This document shows, one piece after another, positions 51,600 through 56,035 of a stretch of DNA of 64,000 bases (the first letter of the stretch is position 1; every line of letters begins with the position of its first letter). The translations under genes were made by a program, and so were the position numbers. The notes beneath the pieces are model-generated. The model worked only from the letters and a program-made list of their open reading frames with translations. It was not told the origin of the DNA and did not search any database. This DNA is from Roseateles sp. DAIF2 (GTDB lineage: Bacteria; Pseudomonadota; Gammaproteobacteria; Burkholderiales; Burkholderiaceae_C). Where the stretch lies: contig NZ_CP049919.1 of the NCBI RefSeq assembly GCF_015624425.1, forward strand, positions 4,588,001-4,652,000, in the 5' to 3' direction.

Positions 51600-52628
51600 C
51601 TAACGCCCCGCCTCCAGCCCCCGCACCCGGCTCATCGCCAGCGCCGCCGCTGCGGTGCGGGTCTCGACGCCCAGCTTCTCGAACACATGCTCCAGATGCT
51701 TCTGCACCGTGCGCGGGCTGGAGCCGAGGATGTCGCCGATGTCGGCATTGGTCTTGCCCTTGACCACCCAATACAGCACCTCGGCCTCGCGCGCGGTCAG
51801 CTTGAAGCCATGCACCAGACCGTCCAGCAGCGCGGCATCGTCGGCCTCGCGCATCACGATCAGCCATTGGCCCTCGCCCAGCGCGTCGGGGTCGACCGCG
51901 TGCAGGGTAAAGCTCAGCCGCTTGGCGCCGCGCGTGCTGAGGAGCGCCGCGCCGGCGGCCGCGGTCGCCTGCGGCAGCACGGTCAGCTTGGCCGGCTCGG
52001 CGCCGGCGCGGCGGCGCAGCACCTCGCGATGCAGCCAGACCAGCACCTCGGGCGGCAGCCGGCCGCGCTCGAAATGCCCGCCGCTGAAGTACTCGGCCAT
52101 CAGCTGGCGCGCCAGCGCGGTCTGCCAGACGCAGCGGCCGTCCAGCTCATGCACCGTCAGGCTGGCATGGCCAAAGGCGTCCAGCGCATTGCGGGCCTGG
52201 CGCTGCGCGCGCGCGCTGCGCAGATGGGCGGCGATGCGCGCCAGCACCTCGCGCGGACGGATCGGCTTGGTCACATAGTCGACGCCGCCGGCCGCGAACG
52301 CGGCCTCGACATGCTCGGTGTCCGACAGCCCGGTCATAAAGATGATCGGCGCGGCCGCGGTGCGCGGGTCGGCCTTCAGCCGGCGCGCCACCTCGAAGCC
52401 GTCCAGGCCCGGCATCAGCGCGTCCAGCACCACCACATCGGGCGGCAGCTGCGCGGCGCTCTCCAGCGCGGCCGCGCCGTCGAAGGCGACCAGCACCGTG
52501 TAGCCGGCCTCGTCCAGCGCGTCGTGCAGCAGGGCCAGGTTGTCCGGCACATCGTCGACGATCAGCACGCGCTCGGCATGCGAGGCGACGGGGGGATTCG
52601 GCAGCAGGTCTTTGTCGTCTTCGCTCAC
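51600..52628 (-). CDS. Response regulator with receiver and LuxR-type HTH
   Basis: This is a 342-residue regulator. A GTG start at 52628 overlaps the stop of the kinase gene (GTGA), so translation is coupled. The receiver spans about residues 18-135 with acidic pocket VLIVDDVPDN, phospho-acceptor VVVLDALMPGLDGF and TKPIR. A middle segment of about 120 residues is unassigned (DAFGHASLTVHELDGRCVW). The C-terminal LuxR helix-turn-helix is LTAREAEVLYWVVKGKTNADIGDILGSSPRTVQKHLEHVFEKLGV. It is the cognate partner of the sensor at 52625-56035 and a candidate regulator of the divergent ure operon. Confidence 0.93.
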   Translation of the reverse strand: MSEDDKDLLPNPPVASHAERVLIVDDVPDNLALLHDALDEAGYTVLVAFDGAAALESAAQLPPDVVVLDALMPGLDGFEVARRLKADPRTAAAPIIFMTGLSDTEHVEAAFAAGGVDYVTKPIRPREVLARIAAHLRSARAQRQARNALDAFGHASLTVHELDGRCVWQTALARQLMAEYFSGGHFERGRLPPEVLVWLHREVLRRRAGAEPAKLTVLPQATAAAGAALLSTRGAKRLSFTLHAVDPDALGEGQWLIVMREADDAALLDGLVHGFKLTAREAEVLYWVVKGKTNADIGDILGSSPRTVQKHLEHVFEKLGVETRTAAAALAMSRVRGLEAGR

Positions 52629-55600: not shown

Positions 55601-56035
55601 AGCCTCCAGCGCGAAGAAGATGAAGGTGAAGCTGGCGTAGATCAGGCTGGTCAGGGTGGAGCCGATATAGCCGAAGCCGGCGCCGCGAGTCAGCAGGTCC
55701 ATGTCCACGCCATGGCGCGCCGCATAGACGCTGATCGGCCAGCCGGCCAGCAGGATGATCAGCCCGGTGGCCAGGATGGCCCAGAAGGCGTTGGCGAAGC
55801 CGTACTCCACCAGCAGGGTCGCCCCCACCGCCTCCAGCACCAGGAAGGAGGCCGCACCGAAGGCCGTGTTCGCCACCCGCGCGCCGGACCAGCGCCGAAA
55901 GGCATGCGGTGTGAAGCGCAGCGCATAGTCCTCCAGCGTCTCGCTGGCCACCCAGGCGTTGTAGTCCCGGCGGATCTTGATGACGCGCTGGACGGGTTCG
56001 GCGGCACTCTGGACGGATGCAGGCTGCGACGGCAT
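52625..56035 (-). CDS. Sensor kinase fused to NCS1-type transporter, cysteine-rich linker and receiver
   Basis: This is a 1136-residue protein. Residues about 20-500 are a full NCS1 (cytosine/hydantoin/allantoin permease-like) transporter with some 12 membrane segments (RFTPHAFRRWSGARVANTAFGAASF, GGQFSLPLFGAAMTVGIALITQMGEQADYLRFM, VSQLKINVTNAYAGSLAWSNFF). A segment with eight cysteines at about 507-544 (CVVCEREY...CSLCC...CEDLC) resembles a zinc-binding knuckle. Two more membrane helices (about 574-596, 621-639), a coiled linker, a HisKA domain with His694 in SISHELRTPLNA, a HATPase domain (NILGNAIKF, DTGPGM, GTGLGL), a receiver (Asp978 in LLLDLAMPG) and a helical tail follow. It probably senses or transports a ureide-type solute; it is divergent from ureA. 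Confidence 0.93.
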   Translation of the reverse strand: MPSQPASVQSAAEPVQRVIKIRRDYNAWVASETLEDYALRFTPHAFRRWSGARVANTAFGAASFLVLEAVGATLLVEYGFANAFWAILATGLIILLAGWPISVYAARHGVDMDLLTRGAGFGYIGSTLTSLIYASFTFIFFALEAAIMAYALELAFDIPPAWGYLICALVVLPLVTHGVTAIARLQVWTQPLWLALLILPYLYVFGRYPELTTQIQGYAGAHGNGGQFSLPLFGAAMTVGIALITQMGEQADYLRFMPTPDPRRRWRWWAAVFVGGPGWVIVGVLKMLGGALLAYLALKLMVPAERAVDPNQMYLVAYDTVFSRPGWAVAATALLVIVSQLKINVTNAYAGSLAWSNFFARLTHSHPGRVVWVVFNTLIALLLMEMELFQALDRVLGLYANIAIAWIMTVVADLVINKPLGLSPPGIEFKRAHLYDINPVGVGAMAAASGLSIAAHLGLFGPLAQAFSALIALVTALLVSPLIAWLTRGRYYIARRSPQLGLQRLRCVVCEREYESEDMAHCPAYRGAICSLCCSLDARCEDLCKPEARLAVQARGLLQALLPRRLWPLLDSGLIQYLGLMALVLPVLLLLFGLLYQHELGRLGADAAGLAPHLKASYAKALVALLLLSGVIGWWLVLTHKSRQVAQEESRRQSEALHAEIESHRRTDARLQQAKVQAEAANEAKTRYITSISHELRTPLNAILGYAQILDEDERMPAHRRQAVTVIRRGGEHLLSLIEGSLDLARIEAGRFKLEPAPWAFGEAVEDLVRLLSLQARAKSLEFVYQAPAGLPDWVRADGKRVQQILINILGNAIKFTAEGSVSLRLSHAGEMARFEIADTGPGMTAAELARVFEPFERGDAVAGGGTGLGLTIAKMLTELMGGELKAHSVPGQGSRFSLKLFLPRLAGGALAQQRRRAARIGFEGPARRLMVVDNEEADRQLLVSMLEPLGFELRLADSGAEALALLRDWPAEALLLDLAMPGLDGWQTLAAIRAQGLSGAPAAIVSANAFDRGLENGLGIRPEDFILKPVRVDELLDWLGRHLGLQWRLREPAPPSPAAAGGALPSRASLLCVQALLRQGHVQGAREQLERMASEEPQGAGLILELRELAREFQLQAMSRLVARALQSESSGDPT

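Follow-up and report, generated by a model that had tools for sequence, protein, structure and literature searches.

Histidine kinases that carry a transporter domain are already known. In the SLC5/STAC systems CbrA/CbrB and CrbS/CrbR, a LeuT-fold transporter domain is fused to a histidine kinase, and CrbS is described as likewise hybrid, its LuxR-type partner requiring an inverted repeat in the promoters it targets (PMC5715377). Ks-Amt5 of Kuenenia is described as a fusion of an ammonium transporter with a histidine kinase (PMC5764959; named in PMC12918730), and fmdCABDEF of Methylophilus as encoding formamidase together with an amide/urea ATP-binding cassette (ABC) transporter induced by formamide and urea; the parts of that report on which we draw name a putative positive regulator and no sensor kinase (PMC10781810). 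Here we describe a hybrid sensor kinase and its LuxR-type partner regulator encoded in a 64,000-nucleotide stretch of Roseateles sp. DAIF2 (NZ_CP049919.1, positions 4,588,001 to 4,652,000; the window). A sequence-only reading had noted a transporter-like sensor kinase divergent from ureA, in a window that also holds allantoin degradation and urt genes, and this layout was confirmed. We consider it probable that the pair forms a two-component system whose signal is urea or, for paralogues elsewhere, formamide and similar short-chain amides, and that it controls urt and, in relatives, fmd and ure genes.

The kinase joins HisKA, HATPase_c and receiver domains in one chain, as expected of a hybrid histidine kinase, and the H, N, G1 and G2 box strings could all be located; the C-terminal tail beyond the receiver has no assigned domain. 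By hydropathy, the polytopic part of the N-terminal domain spans approximately residues 50–490, and two further hydrophobic segments follow at about 569–601 and 614–641. The kinase core, the receiver and the two extra membrane helices anticipated from the sequence were thus recovered by Pfam and hydropathy. The GTG start of the regulator gene overlaps the kinase stop as GTGA, so the two proteins are probably co-translated.

A search with residues 1–660 returned at least 8000 protein matches, all at E ≤ 0.001, and a frequent source name among the best 120 was "signal transduction histidine kinase ... purine-cytosine permease-like". Two sets of loci were compared, with neighbourhoods of about 10 kb on either side. 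The close relatives are the best 80 of 565 loci in a genome scan, mostly from Burkholderiales with some from Rhodocyclaceae/Zoogloeaceae. The phylum sample derives from a profile of the cysteine-rich segment that follows the membrane domain, which gave 58 matches, spread over 53 of the 398 Pseudomonadota genomes; 57 of these, the window included, were kept, and a weak match in G087 (a 32-residue frame, E 7e-4) was dropped. The same membrane domain preceded the cysteine segment in 30 loci, the window among them, and in 40 more. A LuxR-type partner matching at more than 100 bits was present in 79 of the 80 close relatives and in 55 of the 57 phylum-sample loci.

The kinase is consistently located beside urea and amide genes in Pseudomonadota. 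Genes of the ure, urt, urt-like, fmdA, amiE or amiS types lay within about 10 kb in 55 of the 57 phylum-sample loci, the window included, versus 0 of 20 control regions of 20 kb at chosen places in genomes of the sample; the two loci lacking them (L143 and L193) are cut by contig ends and were counted as "none". A Urt-like ABC operon together with the formamidase FmdA was found in 35 of the 57, 18 of which also carried an AmiE-type amidase, while ure and/or urt genes were found in 18 and FmdA with AmiS/UreI in 2; overall, FmdA was near the kinase in 37. Pfam searches on representatives confirmed FmdA, an FmdB-like zinc ribbon, the amidase and AmiS/UreI. Among the 80 close relatives, 66 had ure genes and one had urt alone (67/80 with ure or urt), and 13 had neither; three of these 13 loci (L018, L035 and L058) start at contig ends. 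Over all 137 loci, the kinase was divergent from ureA, urtA or a urtA-like gene at less than 1.5 kb in 103, divergent but farther away in 10, and not divergent in 24. One contig labelled as an Akkermansia muciniphila metagenome-assembled genome (L068) carries a Burkholderiales-type kinase with a ure cluster and is probably mis-binned.

Co-occurrence pointed in the same direction. In the window's family, 83 of 150 genomes carry the kinase, in 106 copies, and 96 of these copies have a urease alpha match (66) or a strong FmdA match (34, with 4 copies near both) within 15 kb, leaving 10 near neither. For these counts, urease matches that were weak or partial (8.8e-23 or weaker) were set aside, as were FmdA matches of 1.5e-39 or weaker. 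All 83 kinase-carrying genomes have urease or strong FmdA, the kinase is present in each of the 34 genomes with strong FmdA, and 33 of the 35 strong FmdA matches are within 15 kb of it; when any FmdA match was counted, 37 of 41 genomes had the kinase (G415, G428, G459 and G492 did not). Urease was also present in 31 of the 67 kinase-free genomes. Fisher p values for co-occurrence with the kinase, which ignore relatedness, were 7e-14 for urease and 5e-11 for strong FmdA.

We also built a quick maximum-likelihood tree of 81 sensor domains, comprising the 57 of the phylum sample and 24 of the 80 close relatives. The amide label required 5 changes on this tree, compared with a mean of 27.0 after shuffling; well-supported branches require 3 or more of these changes. 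The urea contexts fell into four sets, each with its own supported stem. The context therefore appears to have switched several times between urea and amide; as the tree is rooted at its midpoint and has open forks and a number of long branches, we claim several switches and no direction. Five genomes of the phylum sample hold two copies, and in four of them (G246, G379, G225 and G158) one copy has a urea and the other an amide context, while in the fifth (G091) both contexts are amide-type.

Divergent intergenic regions were scanned in 100 of the 137 loci, leaving out regions longer than 900 bp or without a divergent ureA, urtA or urtA-like gene. Those of amide loci, which separate the kinase from the amide-transport operon, hold an 18-bp palindrome near ATACGTCA-N2-TGACGTAT, present at 12 or more of 16 matching bases in 27 of 35 regions, and a degenerate form, TACGYYA-N2-TRRCGTA, was present at 11 or more of 14 bases in 34 of 35 (shuffles, 5.9%). 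NarL-type sites have the same 7-2-7 spacing. In the 300 bp upstream of urtA, the degenerate palindrome was found in 38 of 41 loci (shuffles, 3.9%), and in 37 of 41 at 12 or more of 14 bases (shuffles, 0.1%), although the urtA and kinase promoter counts partly share the same DNA. It was found upstream of FmdA in 8 of 37 loci, of ureC in 5 of 72 and of ureJ in 0 of 28. An exact 5-mer search revealed no palindrome in the ureA intergenic regions, where the degenerate pattern was later found in 24 of 63 (shuffles, 1.6%). The window has one match, upstream of urtA, which is also the sole site with two mismatches in the 6-Mb genome; six further genome sites have three mismatches. Urea and amide copies of the regulator are much alike in their recognition-helix region, with variation at positions 299, 302, 305 and 310. 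The palindrome at urtA is a candidate for the DNA sites of the LuxR partner, which the sequence-only reading had proposed to look for, and the co-encoded regulator is the candidate protein to bind it.

Several observations weigh against this assignment. Ten of the 80 close relatives have at least 6 kb of upstream sequence and no ure, urt or fmd genes nearby, which speaks against a strict linkage rule. The palindrome is upstream of ureA in only 25 of 79 loci, is missing from the window's own kinase/ureA intergenic region, and is missing at urtA in L130–L132. At least one match at three or fewer mismatches occurred in 16 of 100 shuffles of the window, and a reversed control pattern has 29 sites in the genome versus 7 for the pattern, so the pattern itself is not enriched and only the two-mismatch site at urtA stands out. 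The fold model is of moderate confidence. Finally, the copies in L140 and L141 have no LuxR-type partner in reach, with a receiver-containing kinase and another type of response regulator nearby.

These last two copies (L140:8899-11556 and L141:8963-11647) represent a short variant with the same membrane sensor and cysteine segment and a kinase lacking the receiver; their neighbours include the receiver-containing kinase, the other response regulator (OmpR-type in L140), FmdA and an AmiS/UreI channel. Frames of about 940–1050 residues in G414, G441, G476, G516 and G521, in which only 43–49 positions of the cysteine model were matched and each of which is near FmdA, may represent this short variant within the family to which the window belongs. 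The ten kinase-regulator pairs without urea or amide neighbours are those of L015, L017, L019, L021, L022, L030, L040, L060, L067 and L073.

The most economical model is that the kinase reads ligand occupancy of a former transporter, with output to urt, fmd and ure promoters. The NCS1-fold domain would have kept the transporter architecture and would serve chiefly as a receptor. Its central pocket would bind a small molecule containing a -C(=O)-NH2 core, binding would shift the conformation of the domain, and this change would pass through a rigid eight-cysteine finger, probably holding two zinc ions, to the membrane hairpin and coiled coil and on to the kinase. The kinase would phosphorylate the co-encoded regulator, directly or through the attached receiver, and the regulator would bind TACGYYA-N2-TRRCGTA at the urtA promoter, and in relatives at the amide-transport promoters and some ureA and kinase promoters as well, thereby raising uptake and breakdown of the nitrogen source. 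More tentatively, the family may be a widespread receptor class in which an NCS1 fold was turned into a dedicated urea and short-chain-amide sensor, with the ion site replaced by the invariant K342, the pocket retuned several times between amide and urea via residues 407–409 of transmembrane helix 10, and a single regulon site kept from class to class within Pseudomonadota.

The NCS1-type module proposed from the sequence was supported by fold comparison: the membrane domain has a LeuT-type fold, and its closest matches, in fold comparison and profile-profile alignment, were CodB and Mhp1. The NCS1 family model PF02133 (Transp_cyt_pur) matched none of 39 sequences, the window's included, at E ≤ 1, and in the window genome it matched only at a different locus. 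Pfam, NCBIfam and PDB sequence searches gave no family for the domain, and its placement therefore comes solely from fold comparison and profile-profile alignment. The SSF (SLC5) domain had no match at E ≤ 1 in the Pfam scan of the window kinase, and among the fold matches listed the window fold was nearer to CodB than to any SLC5 structure. Membrane domain and cysteine segment each averaged 60% identity to the window protein over 56 sampled loci, compared with 50% for the kinase core, so the sensor is better conserved than the kinase.

Many membrane-domain residues were invariant in all 135 aligned rows, covering urea and amide contexts alike, among them E68, T137, Q246, E249, Q250, D252, R255, Q340, K342, N344, N347 and Y349. 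Columns were compared with NCS1 transporters by hhalign mapping, as diverse members of that family aligned too poorly in MAFFT for columns to be counted, and the CodB and Mhp1 binding sites were taken from PMC9379551. The R216-Y285 pair of CodB maps onto the invariant R255-Y349, and this, together with the retention of a whole transporter fold, would suit a true transceptor, in which the domain still transports urea or an amide and the kinase reads flux instead of occupancy; CbrA, an SLC5 kinase, has been described with both transport and kinase activities (PMC7096432, PMC13022988). However, the Na2 hydroxyl pair of CodB, T278/T279, aligns with K342 (135/135) and I343 (134/135), a correspondence taken from sequence alignment, which makes CodB-type Na+ coupling unlikely, and dedicated Urt or Urt-like ABC transporters are encoded beside many copies (urt-like or urt genes in reach at 40 + 5 of the 57 phylum-sample loci). 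We regard a transceptor as unlikely.

Only five membrane-domain columns (280, 333 and 407–409) distinguished the two contexts in three or more of the four urea groups, while the same convergence scan on 35 control sets of amide clades gave 0–3 columns, with a mean of about 0.5. Position 408 is G in 33 of 35 amide copies (A in the other two), and in the four urea groups it is M in 85/88, C in 5/5, S in 1/2 and S in 3/3. Because the group sizes are unequal, we take these columns as a lead to ligand specificity, not as proof.

All eight cysteines of the segment, at 507, 510, 522, 530, 533, 534, 540 and 544 in the window kinase, were invariant in 81 of 81 sequences (the window and 80 relatives) and in a wider, overlapping set of 58 of 58; both the cysteines and the link to urea genes on which the sequence-only reading had staked its case thus proved to be conserved. 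Structure prediction gave a compact finger, with a predicted local distance difference test score of about 90 over residues ~506–535 and about 70 over 536–545. No solved relative was found by sequence (best E 9.5), there was no PHROG match, and the fold matches, including a RING/FYVE-like comparison, were all weak, with no clear hit, which is not evidence of a new fold. The segment looks like a compact zinc-finger-like unit that may hold two zinc ions. It had been proposed instead as a metal or redox input, and a sensor of nickel, zinc or redox state by which urease output is adjusted to the available metal could account for eight invariant cysteines and for a HupE/UreJ gene within the ure cluster. 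The same cysteines are nevertheless invariant in formamidase and amidase contexts with no urease genes nearby, and the predicted structure is a compact finger; we think such an input quite improbable.

The sequence-only reading had further suggested that the kinase follows ureide, nucleobase or purine flux, for which the NCS1 fold and the allantoin genes of the same window (at 13.0–15.8 kb, 37–40 kb from the kinase) could be cited. With the window's allantoinase and allantoate hydrolase as queries, however, no match above 150 bits was found near the kinase at any of the 137 loci; formamidase, aliphatic amidase, AmiS/UreI and Urt-like ABC genes recur there instead. The pocket alignment points the same way. 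The stacking residue W108 of CodB corresponds to F140, in a column with F in 129 of the 135 rows and L in the other 6. F204, which hhalign left unaligned and we placed by hand, falls near the non-aromatic A242/L243. One or both stacking aromatics, like the two Na2 threonines, appear not to be conserved. We consider a purine, ureide or nucleobase sensor very unlikely. The ten relatives without such neighbours might suggest that the surrounding genes are an inherited leftover and that the system controls some other process, but this is scarcely credible given like neighbours in the same and other classes of the phylum, with urea/amide context switches, the co-occurrence, and a shared palindrome at urtA 10 kb away.

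The features of the locus are collected in Table 1. The ure cluster runs in the order ureA, HupE/UreJ, ureB, ureC, a 461-residue open reading frame, ureE and ureF, and the urt operon (urtA–E, 36285–42371) lies 10–16 kb from the kinase. The 461-residue frame between ureC and ureE (59148–60533, + strand) has no Pfam match and an Ala/Ser/Pro-rich middle. An Rfam match to 5_ureB_sRNA (57531–57825, − strand, 114 bits), antisense within ureC, may be due to nothing more than conservation of the urease coding sequence. An IS4/5-family transposase (48387–49147, + strand), split over two frames (DUF4096 and DDE_Tnp_1), separates the urt operon from the kinase and is adjoined by a 382-residue frame (49161–50309, − strand) with low third-position GC and no Pfam match, which was possibly acquired recently.

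Table 1. Coordinates of the kinase, its parts and the associated genes, numbered from the first nucleotide of the window.
Feature	Position	Strand	Basis or remark
Hybrid sensor histidine kinase, 1136 aa	52625..56035	-	start ATG at 56035
CodB/Mhp1-like (NCS1-fold) membrane sensor domain, residues 16-495	54551..55990	-	
Eight-cysteine finger, residues 505-546, C-x2-C-x11-C-x7-C-x2-C-C-x5-C-x3-C	54398..54523	-	
Membrane hairpin, two further hydrophobic segments, residues 569-641	54113..54331	-	hydropathy
HisKA domain, residues 685-750, H-box HELRTPL from residue 694	53786..53983	-	Pfam
HATPase_c domain, residues 798-903	53327..53644	-	Pfam
Receiver domain, residues 931-1038	52922..53245	-	Pfam
Partner response regulator, REC + LuxR-type GerE	51600..52628	-	GTG start
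Divergent kinase/ureA intergenic region, 127 bp	56036..56162	.	no palindrome copy in window genome
ureA, divergent neighbour of kinase	56163..56465	+	
HupE/UreJ protein, putative nickel permease, in ure cluster	56485..57060	+	Pfam
ureB, start approximate	57060..57368	+	position and matches in relatives
ureC, urease alpha	57368..59098	+	
ureE	60556..61152	+	
ureF	61152..61868	+	
urtA, first gene of urea ABC transporter operon	41082..42371	-	TIGR03407
urtB, urtC, urtD, urtE	36285..40957	-	TIGR03409, TIGR03411, TIGR03410; urtC by position and relatives' matches
Candidate regulator site ATACGCCAGACGGCGTAG, 92 bp upstream of urtA start	42464..42481	+	2 mismatches

In the top-ranked papers of the open-access literature searched, we found no NCS1-type kinase described as a urea or amide sensor, and no ligand, pathway or DNA site for the family. 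Transporter-domain kinases are known, and databases already label relatives as "purine-cytosine permease-like" kinases; the assignment to urea and amides and the promoter site would be what is new relative to that literature. Urea and formamide are important nitrogen sources, and because the family offers a concrete candidate sensor with a defined promoter site, its induction, binding and specificity are directly testable, with the urea- and amide-context paralogues of single genomes serving as natural specificity pairs. If the assignment is true, it adds an independent further case of a transporter fold becoming a receptor.

Set beside the described systems, the GrtK/GrtR ammonia sensor of Burkholderia, which we considered as prior art, shares with this pair that it is a nitrogen-related two-component system and proved unrelated, being described with a PilS-like membrane domain and a Fis-type regulator (PMC12918730). 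The likeness to the Methylophilus fmd genes lies in the FmdA and Urt-like ABC genes found near so many copies. CodB and Mhp1 remain the best fold matches of the membrane domain, and cytosine and hydantoin each contain an -NH-CO- unit; the window domain differs from both transporters in escaping PF02133, by alignment in the Na2 threonines and apparently in the stacking aromatics, and in its fusion to a kinase. With Ks-Amt5 it shares the use of a nitrogen-nutrient transporter domain as kinase sensor, whereas that protein is described with an Amt fold and ammonium as ligand. From the SLC5/STAC kinases it is set apart, on its own features and with no STAC model compared, by a linker made of an eight-cysteine finger and a hydrophobic hairpin, and further by a CodB-like fold and a setting of urea and amide use, where theirs is acetate or histidine.

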